This document shows, in pieces, positions 441 to 32,746 of a stretch of DNA of 64,000 nucleotides (position 1 is the first letter of the stretch; the number at the start of each line of letters is the position of its first letter). The notes under the pieces were generated by a model that saw only the letters and a program-made list of their open reading frames with translations, did no database searches and had not been told where the DNA came from. Made by a program: the position numbers and the translations under genes. The stretch comes from an uncultured Kangiella sp. (GTDB lineage: Bacteria > Pseudomonadota > Gammaproteobacteria > Enterobacterales > Kangiellaceae). The stretch spans positions 1-64,000 of the forward strand of contig CANMKR010000003.1 in the NCBI GenBank assembly GCA_947498625.1, read 5' to 3'.

Positions 441-1247
441 TTATTCTGAAAGAGACTCACTTTCGCTCTCTATTTCAGAATCTTCTGTGTTCAATTTAGC
501 TTTTTTACGTTGTATTCGCTCTTCACGAATATCTTTGAGGTGCCAAAGAGTTAGTATCGGCCCAGATAAAGCATAGATACCAAAACCGATAAACAAGACT
601 TCTGGCGGGAAAGAAGCAATTAAGACAAATAGTAGCACCATTATAATGATACCCATAAAAGGTACCTTGCCTTTGGTGTTTGATCCTTTAAAACTTGAGT
701 AACGAAAATTACTCACCATTAATAAGCCTGTAACTATCGTCAATATACCTATATAGATACCATAGGGTTTAGGCTCCCAACTGTATTCTACGCCTAGCCA
801 AACTAAACCGGCTAAAATAGCTGCAGCCGAGGGACTTGCTAAACCTTGAAAATAGCGTTTATCGGCTGTTTCTACTTGAGTATTGAAGCGGGCCAGACGT
901 AAAGCCGCCGCTACTACATAAACAAAACTGGCTAGCCAGCCAAATTTGCCTAAATCCGACAAGGCCCAATTGTAAGCAACTAAAGCTGGGGCAATACCAA
1001 AAGAAACCATATCGGCCATAGAGTCGTATTCTGCGCCAAAGGCTGTTTGGGTATTGGTGATTCGAGCTATTCTGCCATCAAGTCCATCCATAATCATCGC
1101 AATGAAAATAGCGATTGCAGCATATTCGAAATGCCCTTGCATCGATGCCACCACCGCATAAAAACCCGCAAAAAGACCTGCCGTGGTTAATAAATTGGGA
1201 ATTAGGTATATCCCTCTATGTGAGGATAGGCGTTGACGCATTTTCAT
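441..1247 (-). CDS. pssA: CDP-diacylglycerol-serine O-phosphatidyltransferase
   Basis: This enzyme makes phosphatidylserine from CDP-diacylglycerol and serine in the inner membrane, the precursor of phosphatidylethanolamine. The 268-aa product has about seven hydrophobic segments. It carries the CDP-alcohol phosphotransferase signature D57-G-x2-A-R62-x8-G71-x3-D75-x3-D79 complete with all three aspartates. It belongs to the polytopic (Bacillus-type) PssA family, not the E. coli phospholipase-D-like form. The C-terminus is charged and Ser/Glu-rich. The first ATG is used, although a second Met at codon 3 is possible. It stands alone, next to the rRNA promoter region. Confidence 0.85.
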   Translation of the reverse strand: MKMRQRLSSHRGIYLIPNLLTTAGLFAGFYAVVASMQGHFEYAAIAIFIAMIMDGLDGRIARITNTQTAFGAEYDSMADMVSFGIAPALVAYNWALSDLGKFGWLASFVYVVAAALRLARFNTQVETADKRYFQGLASPSAAAILAGLVWLGVEYSWEPKPYGIYIGILTIVTGLLMVSNFRYSSFKGSNTKGKVPFMGIIIMVLLFVLIASFPPEVLFIGFGIYALSGPILTLWHLKDIREERIQRKKAKLNTEDSEIESESESLSE

Positions 1248-23812: not shown

Positions 23813-25030
23813 TTAGCAAGATCTTACCTCTATACTCCTTTTATGCCAAACTAATTGCTCAGCCTCTGCTAGAGCATCAGCAATCGGCGCTAATATCTGC
23901 CGACCTTTATCCGTAACTTGCTGTACGGTTTGAACTTTTAAAAAGCTCGCGACGTTTAAGCCGCTTGAATATTTAGCGGTGCCCATAGTGGGCAAAGTGT
24001 GATTGGGCCCTGAGCAATAATCGCCAAAAGCCACAGCGCTGTTATCTCCAATAAAAATGGCGCCATAGCTCGTAAGCTGTTTCGATTCAATGCGCGTATC
24101 AGCCAATAATAAGTGCTCAGGGGCAAACTCATCGGAAAATTGAATCATATCTTGAGGATCGTTTGCAGACACTAAACAAATTTGATCTCTTACAAAGAGG
24201 CTCCATAAATATTCGTCAGCTTTTAACGAGCGATAAACCTCACCCAGTAAAGCCTGATTATCGGTCACAAACACGCTGTGCGCTTGCGGATCATGTTCGG
24301 CTTGTGCCGCCATATCTTTAACGATCCACTCAAGATTAGCCTCCTCTCCAGCTAAAATCAGCAACTCACTCGGACCCGCCGGTACGTCAATCGCTAACTG
24401 ACTCTGAAAATACTGCTTAGCCGCATTCACATATTGATTACCCGGCCCTACGATCATTTGCACAGGAGCAATCGACTTAAAGCCTAGCGCCATCGCCGAC
24501 ACAGCTTGAACACCACCAATTTTTATAAAGCTAGTAGCTCCCGCTAATGAGGCCGCGGCTAAAATTGCGGGATGATCCGATGGTGAGCATGCTACTCGCT
24601 CTTCGCATCCGGCCACCTTAGCTGGAATTAAGGTCATCAAAGCAGTGGATATCAATGGGAAACGACCACCAGGAATATAGGCACCAATTCGTTTAATTGC
24701 TTGATAGCAATAACCGTAGCTACCCGTTTCATCACTATAGCTTCTATCTGCTAACGACTCTTTTTGGAACTTACAGAATGCTTCAATTCGCTTCGCTGCC
24801 GCTTTAATCGCCTCAGCCAGCTTATCTTCAAGCTGATAAGATTCGAATGGCATTAACTCTATAAACTCTGGAACAAATCCATCGTAGCGCTTACTGAACT
24901 TAACGATAGATTCATCGCCGCCAAGCTCTATCTCTTTAATTAATTCATGAACAGCATGCAACCTTAAATTACTTTCATTAGTATTGGGTCTGCGCCAATT
25001 CTTAGTGGTATAAACGCCATTATCCAGCAT
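23813..25030 (-). CDS. hisD: Histidinol dehydrogenase
   Basis: Zinc enzyme that oxidises L-histidinol to histidine in two NAD+-dependent steps, the last step of the pathway. The 405-aa product has GAYIPGGRFPL, IVGPGNQYV, DVPAGPSELLI, the catalytic QAEHDPQAHSV, APEHLLL and the C-terminal GDYCSGPNHTLPT. The N-terminus is shorter than in E. coli (434 aa) because the first helices are reduced. ATG at 25030 has AGGAG 7 nt upstream and overlaps the hisA-hisIE stop by 11 bp. It is the last his gene of the operon. Confidence 0.95.
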   Translation of the reverse strand: MLDNGVYTTKNWRRPNTNESNLRLHAVHELIKEIELGGDESIVKFSKRYDGFVPEFIELMPFESYQLEDKLAEAIKAAAKRIEAFCKFQKESLADRSYSDETGSYGYCYQAIKRIGAYIPGGRFPLISTALMTLIPAKVAGCEERVACSPSDHPAILAAASLAGATSFIKIGGVQAVSAMALGFKSIAPVQMIVGPGNQYVNAAKQYFQSQLAIDVPAGPSELLILAGEEANLEWIVKDMAAQAEHDPQAHSVFVTDNQALLGEVYRSLKADEYLWSLFVRDQICLVSANDPQDMIQFSDEFAPEHLLLADTRIESKQLTSYGAIFIGDNSAVAFGDYCSGPNHTLPTMGTAKYSSGLNVASFLKVQTVQQVTDKGRQILAPIADALAEAEQLVWHKRSIEVRSC

Positions 25031-26258
25031 TACGAGCTCCTAGTTCATCAATGATATTTTGCGCGGATACGCCTTTGGCCTTGGCATTAACCAATGCAAA
25101 AAATAACAAATCTGCGGCCTCCCAACGCACATCGTCTTGCGACTGAGCTTCGATTAATTCCGCACACTCTTCATTCAATTTTTCAGCTTGCAATTGCACA
25201 TCATTAAAAAGTTTAGCGGTATATGATTTCTGCTCAGGTTGTTCAATACGGGTTTGTAATACCTTATCTAAAGTATTTAAATTAAACTTGGCAGCTTGTG
25301 AGGCAAAGCAGCTGTATCGCCCAAAATGGCAAGCATTACCAGTTTGCTTAACCTTAAATATTAAAGTATCGCCGTCACAGTCATAATCTACGTTTATTAG
25401 ATCTTGTGAATTGCCGCTAGTTAAACCTTTTTGCCATAACTCTTTTCTCGAACGACTATAATAAACACCTTTCTTTTTTACTAAAGCTGACCTTAAAGAC
25501 TCTCGAGATGAATATGCCAACATTAAAATACTAGCAGTCTCGTAATCTTGAACAATAGTTGGAATCAACTCACTTTTATTAAAGTCTAAGCATGCTTGTA
25601 AAGATTCCGCCAAGGTAATTTTATTAGTATATAAAGACATACCAATCTGGCTGTTAGCGCCCAGTGAGTTAATAAACTGTATATCCGAATAATCTGTAAT
25701 GCCGCCTGCAATAGTCACTGAGACATTAGAGCTTTCGATTATTTTTGATACTCTAGGTTTATCAATACCCTTTAATAAACCTTCTTTGTTAACTTGGGTG
25801 TATAAAAATTCAGAGCAATTTTTTTCTAATTCAGGAATTAAGTCCAAAACTTTTTGTTTAGACTTTTCTTTCCAGCCCTTAATTGCCCAATAATCATCAA
25901 AGGCATCAATCGCAAATATCAACTGTTGCTTAGGAAGTTTTTTAACAAAACTTTCTCGGCAATTAGTGCCAATGATGATTTTACTAGCGCCGCTTGATAA
26001 GTATTCTCGAGCAGTTTCATAGTCACGAATACCACCGCCGACACGGCACGGACGTTTTGCTAGCAACTGCTTAATGAGGGCTTTGTTATCGCCAGTACCT
26101 AAAGCTGCATTTAAATCAATAATCGCCACTTCACCATATAAGGAAAACTCTTCCAATAGTTCGAAAACATTATCCTTTTCTACGACTTTTTTATCAGGAT
26201 TACCCTGTTGTAACTGGACGGCTTTGCCATCCAATAAATCTATCGATGGGATTAACAT
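25020..26258 (-). CDS. hisA-hisIE: HisA-HisI-HisE trifunctional fusion
   Basis: A 412-aa protein joining three histidine enzymes in one frame. Residues 1-223 are HisA (ProFAR isomerase, a TIM barrel) with catalytic Asp7 in [10 protein letters not shown] and Asp118 in FAIDAFDD. Residues about 229-318 are HisI (phosphoribosyl-AMP cyclohydrolase) with YYSRSRKELWQKG, TSGN, DYDCDGDTL and ACHFGRYSCF. Residues about 326-412 are HisE (phosphoribosyl-ATP pyrophosphatase) with LQAEKLNEECAELIEA and WEAADLLFF. HisI-HisE fusion is common, but joining HisA in front is unusual. All catalytic residues look present. It overlaps hisF by 7 bp and hisD by 11 bp. Confidence 0.93.
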   Translation of the reverse strand: MLIPSIDLLDGKAVQLQQGNPDKKVVEKDNVFELLEEFSLYGEVAIIDLNAALGTGDNKALIKQLLAKRPCRVGGGIRDYETAREYLSSGASKIIIGTNCRESFVKKLPKQQLIFAIDAFDDYWAIKGWKEKSKQKVLDLIPELEKNCSEFLYTQVNKEGLLKGIDKPRVSKIIESSNVSVTIAGGITDYSDIQFINSLGANSQIGMSLYTNKITLAESLQACLDFNKSELIPTIVQDYETASILMLAYSSRESLRSALVKKKGVYYSRSRKELWQKGLTSGNSQDLINVDYDCDGDTLIFKVKQTGNACHFGRYSCFASQAAKFNLNTLDKVLQTRIEQPEQKSYTAKLFNDVQLQAEKLNEECAELIEAQSQDDVRWEAADLLFFALVNAKAKGVSAQNIIDELGARNAG

Positions 26259-27615: not shown

Positions 27616-28190
27616 AAGATCCCCTTAGAACTATTATCCAGCGGATTCTCTTGTAAGGCTTCCTTTAGAGCAAAGGCTACCCCTTTGAACGCTGCTTCAA
27701 TCAAATGATGATTATTATCAAAGTACTCTGCTTTGATGTGTAAGCTGATTTGCGCATTGATAGCAAAGCTATAAAAGAAGTGCTTCCACATTTCCGTAGC
27801 GACATTTCCAACTTGCTCTCGAGTGAAAGGTAAATCACAAACGCTATAAGAACGGCCACAAATATCTACAGCAACCATTATCAAAGTTGCATCCATAGGT
27901 AAAAGCCGTTGTCCATAACGTTTAATTGAATTTTCAGCACGCCATGCTTGACTAAATGCCTGACCTAAACAAATGGCCACATCCTCAATTAAATGATGAT
28001 CATCCACCTCTATATCTCCACTAGCAACCAACTTTAAATCCCAACCTGAGTGCATCGCAAGTTGAGTTAGCATATGGTCAAAAAAGGCAAGCCCTGTATC
28101 GATTTCTAACAGTTGTTTCCCTTTGATATTAAGGCACAGTTGAATATCCGTTTCTTTAGTTTTTCTTTCAACATTAATTATTGAACTCAT
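27612..28190 (-). CDS. hisB: Imidazoleglycerol-phosphate dehydratase (monofunctional HisB)
   Basis: Manganese enzyme that dehydrates IGP to imidazole acetol phosphate. The 192-aa product covers only the dehydratase domain; the N-terminal histidinol-phosphatase domain of E. coli HisB is absent. Metal-binding repeats are visible: FFDHMLTQLAMHSGWD, VDDHHLIEDVAI and FDNNHHLIEAAFKG. The ATG overlaps the upstream stop by 4 bp. The missing phosphatase step is probably supplied by the HAD domain fused to HisC immediately upstream. Confidence 0.95.
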   Translation of the reverse strand: MSSIINVERKTKETDIQLCLNIKGKQLLEIDTGLAFFDHMLTQLAMHSGWDLKLVASGDIEVDDHHLIEDVAICLGQAFSQAWRAENSIKRYGQRLLPMDATLIMVAVDICGRSYSVCDLPFTREQVGNVATEMWKHFFYSFAINAQISLHIKAEYFDNNHHLIEAAFKGVAFALKEALQENPLDNSSKGIL

Positions 28191-29875
28191 AATAGATACT
28201 CCAGCTCATTCACATTGTTCAAAACTAAATCAGCACCGTATTGATAGAGATTATCATCACCAATACCTATCGCTATTGCGCCTGCTGATTTAGCCGCCTG
28301 CATATCATCAGGCGCATCGCCTAACATCCAGACTAAATTATTCTGATAGTAGCTTTTTGCTTTTTGAATACCTTCAGGGTTGGGTTTTGACTGCGCCACA
28401 TCGTCATCACTGATGAGCAAGGTATTTCGGATTTCCAATTGATTTAATCCCTGCTCGGCTTCTGATTTGGGTCGCCCCGTAACCACTGCAGTATTTAAAG
28501 ACTTGGCTTTTGAAATAAAAACTTTTTCTGATAACTTTTGTGATAAAAAGGCTGTCTCTTTTAGGTATAAACCTTTATTGCTGGTATCGCCTAAATAAAA
28601 CCTCTGAAACACTTGTGTTACCTGCTCAATGGAAGCTGCTTTTCCTTGCAAGCGGATTAACTCTTGAGCCAATAACCAATCATTATTAAATCCACCCTGC
28701 CCTCTAACTTTAAGCACGGCTTCTCTAGTAACCGTTTTACCAGTGAACTCCTGTACCGCTTTAATGATGCACTGGTCATAGCTGCTTGAAGTATCTATCA
28801 AGACTCCATCCATATCGAAACATACCAATTCAGGCTCTAAAGCTAACCTCAATGCTAACAATAATCTGTCCATATAAATTGGGATGCCAATACGTATAGC
28901 AGAAAATTCTTTTTCAGTAGAAAGGCCCGTTAAATCGTTTTTAATTTGGATATTAAATTGATTACAAGCGCTACTAATTAACTGAAGCTGCCTAGGATCG
29001 GCTTGAATTAATATGAAATTCGCTTGGCTATCATTAATAACCAATTCAAAATTGGTCAAATAATTCACCAGTTGCTGACGATTTTCCGAGATCTTTTTGC
29101 AGTAGTTTCTCACTTCTAATTTTGCTGCATCACTAAATGCTAACTGTGCTAATTGCTCGCTTGGACGTGAAATATTAAAAGGTAATGCTAAAGCTTTAAA
29201 AGTATTGATCATTAACTCTTGCCCCATTAAGTAACCCACTCGTATACCAGCTAAACCGTATGCTTTAGATAAAGTTCTTAGTATTAAAATATTCTCAAAC
29301 TCATTTAATAATTCAACGCACTGTTGTTCTTTCTCAGTGAATTCTATGTATGCAAAATCGATAAAAACATACGCCCGCTTTTCTTTCGCTTGCTGGCATA
29401 CGGCTTTTATTTGCTCATAACTAAAAGTTTCACCACTGGGATTGTTTGGACTGGTCAGAATTAATACTGAGTTTTCGTCTATAGCTTGAATTGCTTGCTC
29501 TAAATTAATACTCAAGTCTTCATTTGGCTCTATGAGAAGGCTATCTAGCTGCCAACTATCTTTACCTACCCAATATTGACTGAATGCTGGTAATGGTAAA
29601 ATAATTTGATAATTATTGAGCTTTGCCCACTTAAACATCAATTCAATAGCTTCATCACCGCCATTGGTCAGTAAAAGCTGCTGCTCATTAATACCCAAAC
29701 TTGTCGCCGCCCTTTGCTGTAAATTGGTTTTAGATGGATACTTCCATAAGCTCTCCAACTCCACATCAATGCCTGACAACCATAATGGCAAACTATCTGA
29801 GCGCTCATTAAAGTCGAGTTTTAACGCCTTCTTAGATTGGTAGTCTAGGCATTTATCTATATTAAGCTGCTTCAT
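28187..29875 (-). CDS. hisC: HisC-HAD fusion: histidinol-phosphate aminotransferase with a C-terminal phosphatase domain
   Basis: A 562-aa fusion. Residues 1-345 are a PLP-dependent HisC aminotransferase with TSPNNPSGE, FIDFAYIEF and the PLP lysine K204 in LRTLSKAYGLAGIRVGY. Residues 350-562 are a HAD family IA hydrolase with nucleophile Asp354 and Asp356 in FDMDGVLID, VTGRPK, Lys497 in SKPNP and GDAPDD (519-524). All four HAD motifs are intact. HAD proteins of a similar subfamily occur fused to or near his genes elsewhere, and HisB here lacks a phosphatase domain. I therefore infer histidinol-phosphate phosphatase, the step directly after HisC. The gene follows hisG by 10 bp. Confidence 0.9.
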   Translation of the reverse strand: MKQLNIDKCLDYQSKKALKLDFNERSDSLPLWLSGIDVELESLWKYPSKTNLQQRAATSLGINEQQLLLTNGGDEAIELMFKWAKLNNYQIILPLPAFSQYWVGKDSWQLDSLLIEPNEDLSINLEQAIQAIDENSVLILTSPNNPSGETFSYEQIKAVCQQAKEKRAYVFIDFAYIEFTEKEQQCVELLNEFENILILRTLSKAYGLAGIRVGYLMGQELMINTFKALALPFNISRPSEQLAQLAFSDAAKLEVRNYCKKISENRQQLVNYLTNFELVINDSQANFILIQADPRQLQLISSACNQFNIQIKNDLTGLSTEKEFSAIRIGIPIYMDRLLLALRLALEPELVCFDMDGVLIDTSSSYDQCIIKAVQEFTGKTVTREAVLKVRGQGGFNNDWLLAQELIRLQGKAASIEQVTQVFQRFYLGDTSNKGLYLKETAFLSQKLSEKVFISKAKSLNTAVVTGRPKSEAEQGLNQLEIRNTLLISDDDVAQSKPNPEGIQKAKSYYQNNLVWMLGDAPDDMQAAKSAGAIAIGIGDDNLYQYGADLVLNNVNELEYLL

Positions 29876-29885
29876 ACACTTCTCC

Positions 29886-30734
29886 CTAGAGCACCTTTCT
29901 TATTGGGGTTTCTAAAATATCAGTTGCACCTGCTGATATAAGCTTAGGCAATAAGTCCTTGGTCACTTTTCTTTCTATTGCGGCTTTAATAGCAAAACCA
30001 TCTCCTTTATAAAGCTTACTAACCGTTGGCGAGCGCATAGCTGGTAACAGCGACACAATAGCTTCAACATTGTCCTGTGTGCAGTTCATTTCGAGCAACA
30101 CTCGCTTACGGCCGTTCATCACCCCACGCATCAGCAGCAATAAATCATTAATTTGTTTTTTCTTTATAGGATCATTCATCACGGCTTTGTTGGCGATAAA
30201 TTGGGTGGAGCTTTCCATGGCTGTTCCTACAATTTTCAAACGATTTGCTCGAATGGTTGAGCCGGTACTGGTATTATCAATCACCATATCGGCATCTTCA
30301 GGCGGAAAAACTTCGGTAGCGCCATAGGCTCTGAAGAGTTTGTAACTTGCGCCAATAGAATCTAAATATTTAGCTGCTATCTTCTTATATTCCGATGCGA
30401 CTATAATTTCTCGCTGCTTAATTTCTTGCCAATCCCACTCTTCAGGAATACAAGAAACAATTTTCACCGGGTTAAAACCTAAATCTTCTAATACTTCAAC
30501 ATCAGCATCTTGCTCTACTATCCAGTCCATGCCGGCAAAGCCAATATCGTGTTGACCTAAAGCAACCATTTCTGGGATATTCTGGCTTTTCAATAATTTA
30601 ACCTCGATATCGCAACCATAGAGGCTCGGTCGATAATTTCGGCTATCACCAATTAAGGTTAAACCAATATCCGATAATAACTCTTCAACCTTGTTGTAAA
30701 GTTTTCCTTTTGGGATAACCATTTTCAATGTCAT
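29886..30734 (-). CDS. hisG: ATP phosphoribosyltransferase, long form
   Basis: First and feedback-regulated step of histidine synthesis. The 282-aa product is the long HisG form, with the catalytic periplasmic-binding-protein-like domains and a C-terminal ACT-like regulatory domain (about 210-282). It therefore needs no HisZ. Motifs are VIPKGKLYNKV, IGFAGMDWIV, the PRPP-binding ADMVIDNTSTGST and a C-terminal GATDILETPIRKVL. It is the first structural gene, directly after two tandem his attenuators. Confidence 0.95.
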   Translation of the reverse strand: MTLKMVIPKGKLYNKVEELLSDIGLTLIGDSRNYRPSLYGCDIEVKLLKSQNIPEMVALGQHDIGFAGMDWIVEQDADVEVLEDLGFNPVKIVSCIPEEWDWQEIKQREIIVASEYKKIAAKYLDSIGASYKLFRAYGATEVFPPEDADMVIDNTSTGSTIRANRLKIVGTAMESSTQFIANKAVMNDPIKKKQINDLLLLMRGVMNGRKRVLLEMNCTQDNVEAIVSLLPAMRSPTVSKLYKGDGFAIKAAIERKVTKDLLPKLISAGATDILETPIRKVL

Positions 30735-30765
30735 GTCTTTCTCTCCAGTTTTTTAAATTTGCAAA

Positions 30766-30804
30766 GAAAAACCCCGTTGACCTTACGGCGCAACGGGGTT
30801 TTTC
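30766..30804 (-). terminator. his attenuator terminator 2 (proximal to hisG)
   Basis: On the minus strand the stem is AAAAACCCCGTTG, an 11-nt loop, CAACGGGGTTTTT, an intrinsic terminator 32 bp before hisG. A CAACGG segment inside leader peptide 2 (near 30843) is complementary to CCGTTG of this stem. That complementarity would form the antiterminator when ribosomes stall on the His codons. Confidence 0.85.
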
Positions 30805-30827
30805 AAAATTCGTAATCTAGTTAAATA

Positions 30828-30896
30828 CTACCAATCCCACCGTTGCTTTAGCAAAGTGTGATGATGGTGATGAGTAGTATTTAGTTGATAGTTCAT
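30828..30896 (-). CDS. hisL: his operon leader peptide 2
   Basis: A 22-codon reading frame: MNYQLNTT, five consecutive histidines (CAT CAC CAT CAT CAC), then TLLKQRWDW and TAG. A 9-bp inverted repeat AAATACTAC ... GTAGTATTT surrounds the His codons, and TTGC-TAAA-GCAA lies within it, giving a pause hairpin. The terminator follows 24 bp later. This is a standard His-codon attenuator. The ribosome-binding site is weak (TTGAGA). Confidence 0.85.
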   Translation of the reverse strand: MNYQLNTTHHHHHTLLKQRWDW

Positions 30897-30920
30897 ATTT
30901 TCTCAATTTTCTTTAAACAT

Positions 30921-30949
30921 AAAAAAAGCCCCGCTATTTGCGGGGCTTT
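30921..30949 (-). terminator. his attenuator terminator 1 (distal)
   Basis: On the minus strand: AAAGCCCCGC, loop AAATA, GCGGGGCTTTTTTT, a strong intrinsic terminator. The GCGGGG at the end of leader peptide 1 is complementary to CCCCGC of this stem, which gives an antiterminator alternative. No gene lies between it and leader peptide 2. Confidence 0.88.
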
Positions 30950-30980
30950 AAAATTCTTAATTAGATTATTTTAAGCAATA

Positions 30981-31040
30981 TCACCCCGCCATCATGCTAG
31001 TATGATGGTGATGATGGTTTTGTGCTTTTAAAATAATCAT
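30981..31040 (-). CDS. hisL: his operon leader peptide 1
   Basis: A 19-codon reading frame: MIILKAQN, five consecutive histidines (CAT CAT CAC CAT CAT), TSMMAG, TGA. The CATCAT codons can pair with the two ATG codons (CATCAT-ACTAGC-ATGATG), giving the pause hairpin. No Shine-Dalgarno sequence is visible, and the predicted transcription start lies at or next to this ATG, so the leader message may be leaderless. Confidence 0.85.
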   Translation of the reverse strand: MIILKAQNHHHHHTSMMAG

Positions 31041-31046
31041 GTTGCT

Positions 31047-31075
31047 AATGTAATTAAGCTCATTGTTGTTGTCAA
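31047..31075 (-). promoter_or_regulatory. Probable his operon promoter
   Basis: On the minus strand: TTGACA (31075-31070), 17-bp spacer, TACATT (31052-31047). It is the best sigma-70 match between glnK and the leader peptides. No terminator is visible after glnK, so read-through from amt-glnK is also possible. Confidence 0.55.
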
Positions 31076-31119
31076 CGCTTATTTAAAATAATTCTTATAT
31101 AATTGTAACCATAGGTAAG

Positions 31120-31461
<342 letters not shown>

Positions 31462-31468
31462 TCACTCC

Positions 31469-32710
31469 CTAACCGTTGGTAAATTCTGGATAAGCTTCTA
31501 AGCCACACTCTTCAATATCAGCTCCACGATATTCATGCTCTTCATCTATACGGATGCCAATAGTTTTTTTGATCAAATACCAAGCAATAAAACTGGTGCT
31601 AAAAGTCCAGCTAATAATCACCACAATACCCACTAATTGGTTGATTAGGGTTACATCTGAATTAGTGTAAGCCACAGCCAATAACCCCCAGATACCGGCT
31701 ATACCATGTACTGAAATAGCACCTACCGGATCATCCACTTTGATTTTGTCAAAAAGGACAATGGATATCACGACTAACACACCGCCTATCAAGCCAATTG
31801 CTGCAGCCAACCAAGGGGATGTTGAAACAGGATCAGCTGTAATTGAAACTAATCCAGCCAAAGCGCCATTCAAGATCATCGTTAAATCAGCTTTGCCATA
31901 ACGCATTTTAGTCAGCAACAAGGCTCCAATAGCACCAGCGGCTGCGGCAGTATTGGTATTTAAAAGCACCAAGGCCACACTATTAGCACTAGATACGTCA
32001 GAAATTTTTAATACTGAGCCACCATTAAACCCAAACCAACCCATCCATAAAATCAATGTTCCTAGTGTTGCTAAGGGGATGTTAGCTCCAGGAAAAGCTT
32101 TAACTTCACCCTTTTTACCATACTTGCCTTTCCTTGGGCCTAATAACAATACGCCTGCAAATGCTGCAGTAGCGCCAAACAAATGGACCACTCCTGAACC
32201 TGCAAAGTCATAAAAGCCCTGTTGTTCTAAGAAACCTAAACCCCATTTCCAATAGCCCTGTATCGGATATATAAAAGCCGTAAGTATCACTGCAAAGATC
32301 AAGAATGACCAAAGTTTCATTCTCTCGGCAACGGCTCCTGAAACAATAGACATAGCGGTGGCCACAAAAACCAATTGAAAAAAGATATTAGCCATTTTGG
32401 AAAAAACCAATTTGCTATCAGTGGCAACTTGCTGGGAGCTATTATCTACAAAATCTACGCCTGATAATCCAGGCCACCAAGAATTTATTGCCGCCGAGGG
32501 ATACATCAGTTCGTATCCGATAAATAAATAAGTCAGGCTGGCAATTGAAAATAAAGCGATATTTTTTGTCAGTATTTCTACTGTATTTTTCGAACGGACT
32601 AGACCAGCCTCTAGCATTGTAAAGCCAGCGGTCATCCACATTACCAACACAGCAAAACTAAGAATATAAAAAGTGTTTAGAGCGTAACTAAGCCCAGTAA
32701 TAGCTTCCAT
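31469..32710 (-). CDS. amtB: Ammonium transporter
   Basis: An inner-membrane ammonium channel of the Amt/Rh family with about eleven hydrophobic segments. Pore histidines are visible in DFAGSGVVHLFGATAAFAG and ISVHGIAGIWG, and the N-terminal signature is WMTAGFTMLEAGLVR. I start at the ATG at 32710 (MEAITGLSYALNTFY, 413 aa) with GGGGATC upstream; an ATG at 32722 adds four residues. There is no cleavable signal peptide as in E. coli AmtB. The upstream region carries an NtrC-type site, consistent with nitrogen control. Confidence 0.93.
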   Translation of the reverse strand: MEAITGLSYALNTFYILSFAVLVMWMTAGFTMLEAGLVRSKNTVEILTKNIALFSIASLTYLFIGYELMYPSAAINSWWPGLSGVDFVDNSSQQVATDSKLVFSKMANIFFQLVFVATAMSIVSGAVAERMKLWSFLIFAVILTAFIYPIQGYWKWGLGFLEQQGFYDFAGSGVVHLFGATAAFAGVLLLGPRKGKYGKKGEVKAFPGANIPLATLGTLILWMGWFGFNGGSVLKISDVSSANSVALVLLNTNTAAAAGAIGALLLTKMRYGKADLTMILNGALAGLVSITADPVSTSPWLAAAIGLIGGVLVVISIVLFDKIKVDDPVGAISVHGIAGIWGLLAVAYTNSDVTLINQLVGIVVIISWTFSTSFIAWYLIKKTIGIRIDEEHEYRGADIEECGLEAYPEFTNG

Positions 32711-32746
32711 CAGGATCCCCATGTTTTGTTTTCATTATTTTTAACA

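Follow-up and report, generated by a model that had tools for sequence, protein, structure and literature searches.

The DNA analysed here is a stretch of 64,000 nucleotides from an uncultured Kangiella sp., referred to below as the window. Its minus strand carries, in order, one sigma-70-like promoter (P1), leader 1, terminator 1, leader 2, terminator 2 and hisG (Table 1). A preliminary description of this DNA had assigned the promoter, both leaders, both terminators and hisG to this strand, and each was found at the position given there. Pfam domains indicate that hisG is followed on its 3' side by a hisC-HAD fusion, hisB, hisH, hisF, a hisA-hisI-hisE fusion and hisD; only gene order and fold family distinguish hisH from hisF. 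The HisC-type aminotransferase (28187-29875, minus strand) is fused with a HAD_2 phosphatase domain, which is possibly a histidinol-phosphate phosphatase. HisA, HisI and HisE form a triple fusion (25020-26258, minus strand), and the operon ends with hisD. The HisG of the window shares about 27% identity with most of the HisG proteins of the order, and a HisG match at E 1e-60 or better was obtained in one of 274 genomes of the class, that of the window itself. The genes amtB and glnB (31120-32722, minus strand) lie directly upstream of P1 on the same strand, and a simple scan of 29500-32000 found no terminator-like site between them and P1.

Table 1. Features of the his leader region in the window.
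Feature	Position	Strand	Detail or basis
Promoter P1, TTGACA-17 nt-TACATT	31047..31075	-	TTGACA 31075-31070, TACATT 31052-31047
Leader peptide 1, MIILKAQNHHHHHTSMMAG, stop included	30981..31040	-	His codons 31016-31002, five consecutive
Unit 1 1:2 hairpin (no-ribosome state)	30964..31038	-	Fold and coupled variation
Antiterminator segment 1, GCGGGGU	30983..30989	-	Pairs with 30946-30940
Terminator 1, stem-loop and T tract	30921..30949	-	Simple scan and fold
Leader peptide 2, MNYQLNTTHHHHHTLLKQRWDW, stop included	30828..30896	-	His codons 30872-30858, five consecutive
Unit 2 1:2 hairpin (no-ribosome state)	30822..30883	-	Fold and coupled variation
Antiterminator segment 2, GCAACGG(U)GG	30837..30846	-	Pairs with 30798-30790
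Terminator 2, stem-loop and T tract	30766..30804	-	Fold; missed by simple scan
hisG, first gene of the operon	29886..30734	-	Pfam HisG match

The double His run ahead of hisG had been put forward as a pattern to look for in related genomes. hisG was found in 19 of the 20 genomes of the genus Kangiella, and both leaders and both terminators precede it in 19/19 of these loci. Outside the genus, the Kangiella family had one leader in all 17 hisG loci (L020-L036); in two of them (L034 and L036) the His leader has spaced His codons (IHQTHRH) and no run. Six loci from families f4, f13 and f14 also had one leader, and when sister genera and nearby families were pooled, one unit was present in 23/23 loci examined. 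For the rest of the order we examined 54 loci, drawn from the 179 of 197 order genomes with a hisG match; 47 had one leader, 7 had none and none had two.

The tandem arrangement is also present in the family of Marinicella meishanensis. A scan of named genomes for two His runs flanking a T run returned at least 119 matches, and a HisG-like start followed four of the 119 listed, three in Kangiella and one in Marinicella meishanensis; the gaps of this pattern fit 6/19 Kangiella loci, so the scan is incomplete and biased. ORF length was measured for the other 115 listed matches, and five were inspected. We then searched 33 genomes of the Marinicella family. HisG was matched in 30 of them, and in 26 it was of the Kangiella type. 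Among the 25 usable loci, 15 were tandem and 10 were single. Two loci were dropped, namely L278 of genome G302, with hisG divided between contigs, and L282, for which no start was found. Three further loci (L279-L281) carry a distant type of HisG without a leader. L275, whose contig starts within terminator 1, was nonetheless scored as tandem. In L274 leader 2 was missed by the filter and read by eye, and the T tract of its terminator 2 is broken; a second hit in L269, located upstream of the promoter, was left out of the count.

Each unit can adopt the alternatives of a leader-peptide attenuator, namely a 1:2 hairpin, an antiterminator and a terminator. When the window units were folded alone, the z-score was -6.3 for unit 1 and -7.7 for unit 2, and 0/200 shuffles were equally stable in either case. 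A terminator search found a hairpin with a T tract for all 38 Kangiella units. The simple scan of 29500-32000 detected terminator 1 and missed terminator 2, and the promoter-like and terminator-like sites that it returned were no commoner there than in shuffles. In the best fold without a ribosome, both window units form a long 1:2 hairpin, which runs from the start of the leader to past its stop codon, and then the terminator. In 37 of the 38 Kangiella units the no-ribosome fold contained 19 or more 1:2 pairs; the exception was unit 2 of L008, with 3 pairs only.

The capture fold was modelled with a ribosome halted where the His run ends and RNA polymerase just beyond the 5' arm of the terminator. 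In this stalled-ribosome state of the window, GCGGGGU pairs with GCCCCGC in unit 1, and GCAACGG(U)GG pairs with CCCCGUUGC in unit 2. The complementary segments pointed out in the preliminary description (GCGGGG/CCCCGC and CAACGG/CCGTTG) are real and correspond to these predicted antiterminator arms. The leader captured at least 0.7 of the terminator 5' arm in 38/38 Kangiella units, a level that individual shuffled leaders also reached in 37-38% of cases. As a group, the native leaders captured a mean share of 0.96 (unit 1) and 0.91 (unit 2), compared with top group means of 0.70 and 0.73 among 100 shuffled sets. Taken one by one, antiterminator complementarity exceeded that of shuffles (p<0.05) in 19/19 Kangiella loci for unit 2 and in 7/19 for unit 1.

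The pairing of the 1:2 hairpin was better than in shuffles, locus by locus, in 9/19 Kangiella for unit 1 and 8/19 for unit 2. Native 1:2 combinations were also compared with combinations swapped between species. They paired at -11.3 versus -8.4 kcal/mol in unit 1 and at -10.7 versus -8.0 kcal/mol in unit 2, with permutation p values of 1e-4 and 2e-4, respectively, from a permutation that ignores relatedness. Because the native combinations are better than the swapped ones, these results suggest that the two sides of the hairpin vary together.

The His codons are kept in both leaders. Across the 38 Kangiella units, leader 1 has 4-6 His codons and leader 2 has 3-6, and CAT and CAC interchange in most His columns. 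Histidine is thus kept while its codons mix, which suggests that selection acts on the amino acid and not on the DNA. The Shine-Dalgarno pairing of leader 2 is weak, with a mean of -2.6 kcal/mol versus -6.9 kcal/mol for hisG, and it barely beats shuffles (p 0.07). This weakness would suit a histidine response that comes from one unit only, where sensing falls to unit 1 and unit 2, being poorly translated, is either a plain terminator or in decay, or with the roles exchanged. It would likewise suit such a response that unit 2 is missing from the sister genera and from the Marinicella-family singles, which retain the unit 1 type. However, an untranslated unit has no need of His codons, and unit 2 has kept its His run, together with coupled 1:2 variation, in 19/19 Kangiella loci; it is also unit 2 that has the stronger antiterminator complementarity there. 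We therefore consider it unlikely that only one of the two units responds, and favour two sensing units. These units may not be fully independent in the window species, because antiterminator 1 pairs almost equally well with terminator 2 (-15.0) and with its own terminator (-15.5). In most species antiterminator 1 prefers its own terminator; the two pairings are about equal in L001-L003, L005 and L018.

The position of P1 bears on how the two units are connected. The -10 element ends 6 nt upstream of ATG1 in the window, and the corresponding distance is 6-8 nt in 19/19 Kangiella loci and 7 nt in four tandem Marinicella-family loci. Leader 1 is predicted to be leaderless because of this short distance. 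P1 scored above shuffles (p<0.05) in 16/19 Kangiella (the exceptions being L003, L005 and L018) and in all four tandem Marinicella-family loci. Promoters of single units were patchy, with 10/26 above shuffles at p<0.05. The upstream neighbours vary by species, for instance glnB in L001 and another coding end in L003 (read by eye), and P1, the two units and hisG remain linked despite these differing neighbours. In the window, any readthrough from amtB and glnB would reach unit 1 with no leaderless start.

If each attenuator had a promoter of its own, the units would be alternative to one another and not serial. Single sites of moderate score do precede leader 2 in some species (L003 and L013, p about 0.1), but the best sites differ among species, and the promoter score before leader 2 exceeded shuffles (p<0.05) in 0/23 loci, comprising 19 Kangiella and 4 Marinicella-family tandems. 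Additionally, the spacer in the window is 24 nt, so that a -35 element would fall inside the terminator. Two promoters thus seem very improbable to us. With leader 1 predicted to be leaderless and the region ahead of unit 2 lacking any standout promoter-like site, serial action of the two units is the likeliest arrangement. What the sequences contain is one promoter, with a predicted start site, two complete units and one operon. The anatomy of the locus, the kept His codons, the conserved antiterminator and 1:2 pairing and the lack of a standout second promoter make two his attenuators in series, as originally suggested, the best reading.

The two units do not look like recent copies of one another. 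A recent tandem duplication in Kangiella was considered and rejected, as models of unit 1 and unit 2 scored the other unit at means of 19.0 and 11.2 bits versus 97.0 and 102.1 bits for their own. The unit 1 model scored the single units of the sister genera and family f4 at 35.9 bits. Thus, the Kangiella units are less alike than unit 1 and the single unit of a sister genus, in agreement with the earlier view that the pair is not a recent copying artefact. Conversely, a model built from the sister-genus and f4 singles gave 36.1 bits for unit 1 and 18.3 bits for unit 2, and this better fit to unit 1 suggests that unit 2 is probably the added unit. Unit 2 weakly resembles the units of families f13 and f14 (21.0 bits versus 7.7 bits for unit 1), which is too little to name a source.

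We placed the tandem and single labels on a HisG tree of 67 rows, where they need six changes, five of them forced by well-supported branches. The presence of the tandem in both Kangiella and the Marinicella family fits one gain with five losses. The branch that joins these two groups is weakly supported at 90/67 (94/81 in a smaller tree) and sets Kangiella apart from the other members of its family; two gains or a transfer of the operon are therefore possible. In all 10 Marinicella-family singles, the unit 1 model gave a higher score than the unit 2 model did. The fit to unit 1 was clear for five of them (L182, L263, L264, L265 and L269), and the margin was just 2.4-7.4 bits for the others (L183, L184, L267, L271 and L276). 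One single, L182, stands beside the tandem L180 in the HisG tree with a support of 100/99. The tail of L182 matches the sequence that follows terminator 2 of L180 (z 10.2); it does not match the stretch following terminator 1 (z -1.2). This match suggests that unit 2 was most likely deleted between the two terminators in L182. The same tail test gave z values of 4.1 for L269 and 4.7 for L265, where the end of the unit had been placed too early, and no signal for L263 (z 0.2) and L264 (z -0.7).

Attenuation of the his and trp operons is a textbook example of a switch. Each Kangiella unit resembles the his attenuator of E. coli and Salmonella (hisL; Rfam RF00514) in having a His-rich leader peptide, alternative folds and an intrinsic terminator before hisG. 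However, hisL is one unit, whereas Kangiella has two, with a simpler layout of 1:2, 2:3 and 3:4 pairings and a leader 1 that is predicted to be leaderless. RF00514 scored units 1 and 2 at 28.4 and 27.2 bits, below its gathering cut-off of 49, and the Phe, Trp and Leu leader families scored unit 1 at 33.7, 30.3 and 29.3 bits, all under their cut-offs. On four classical his loci, RF00514 passed two (118.1 and 74.9 bits) and failed two. No Rfam match at gathering was obtained in the window, nor in four of the five relatives of this type that were scanned (L011, L026, L178 and L184). In the fifth, L004, positions 835-972 (minus strand) match the TwoAYGGAY RNA (RF01731; 44.9 bits versus a gathering of 43), which is unrelated.

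Serial control elements have been described in other leaders. The mgtCBR leader of Salmonella is described as having tandem attenuators that respond additively to different signals, ATP and proline, and it has been called a singular example (PMC3641672). It is like the Kangiella locus in having two leader ORFs in one leader RNA and one operon; in Kangiella, unlike that description, a His run and a separate terminator are present in both units (PMC3641672). Tandem T-boxes and riboswitches for one ligand are likewise two serial sensors of one signal, and a pseudo-cooperative, digital-like response has been proposed for them (PMC9413887, PMC12452182). They are described as binding tRNA or a ligand directly, whereas the sensor in Kangiella would be a translating ribosome (PMC9413887, PMC12452182). 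The rimP leader of several Gammaproteobacteria is reported to have a second, upstream terminator with a potential antiterminator, and thus two tandem terminators in one leader; the part of that account available to us names no amino-acid leader peptide, unlike the Kangiella units (PMC2965389). For the his and trp attenuators, the main text of a model of leak and sensitivity mentions neither tandem nor series arrangements (PMC1183508). In the open-licence literature, outside which most subscription papers lie, we found no case of two serial leader-peptide attenuators for one amino acid. Each unit is like a his attenuator, and what is new is that two stand in series and are kept through a genus. 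Vitreschak and colleagues reportedly made a comparative study of proteobacterial attenuators in 2004, which could include a tandem case.

Based on these comparisons, we propose a model of how the leader region controls the operon. We believe that it very probably contains two complete ribosome-mediated attenuators, both reading charged His-tRNA, in series between one promoter and hisG. RNA polymerase would start at or beside the AUG of leader 1, and leader 1 would be translated as a leaderless message. When His-tRNA is charged, the ribosome would reach the stop codon and mask the antiterminator segment, which would allow terminator 1 to form and transcription to end. Conversely, when His-tRNA is scarce, the ribosome would stall on the His run, and the freed segment would capture the 5' arm of terminator 1. 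Polymerase that reads through unit 1 would then go on to unit 2 and face the same test at terminator 2, with leader 2 translated by a second ribosome. If no ribosome is present, each 1:2 hairpin would form and termination would be the default.

Transcription of hisG would thus be approximately the product of two readthrough chances, with less leak, a steeper response and a lower ceiling. As the units stand in series order, repression would be multiplied if both sites terminate independently. A second unit may also sharpen the response to charged His-tRNA, as the preliminary description had proposed. More tentatively, the locus could be a two-stage attenuator for a single amino acid, in which the first stage depends on a leaderless-initiating ribosome and the second on an internally initiating one; we regard this as a serious possibility without expecting it to hold. 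If it did, opening of the operon would require two separate ribosomes, each encountering a shortage of charged His-tRNA. The response would then be digital-like without a protein regulator, and close relatives with one unit would be natural controls.

The predicted leaderless start, found in 19/19 Kangiella, has a parallel in the trpL attenuator of Sinorhizobium meliloti, whose transcript is described as starting at the leader ATG (PMC7298713). That attenuator is single and reads Trp, whereas the Kangiella locus would read His and has a second, non-leaderless unit (PMC7298713). The leaderless trpL RNA and its peptide are a precedent for action in trans (PMC7298713), and by analogy the terminated transcript of unit 1, or its peptide, might act in the same way. 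Such a role would be compatible with a series attenuator. However, peptide 1 varies freely across species except in the His run and pairing segments, and we think a trans role improbable, if anything slightly more so than a response from one unit only.

Series attenuators for the same amino acid would let evolution tune leak and steepness through the number of copies. Additionally, the existence of close relatives with one and with two units makes the effect of the second unit testable on natural sequences. A separate feature was noted in six of the single-leader loci of the Kangiella family (L020, L021, L023, L026, L028 and L031). In these loci, TATACAAC is present in the his promoter region upstream of hisG, and a TATATACAA-like or TCTATACAA-like motif lies farther upstream, near another gene. 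Together, TATACAAC and the upstream motif could be a candidate repressor site.
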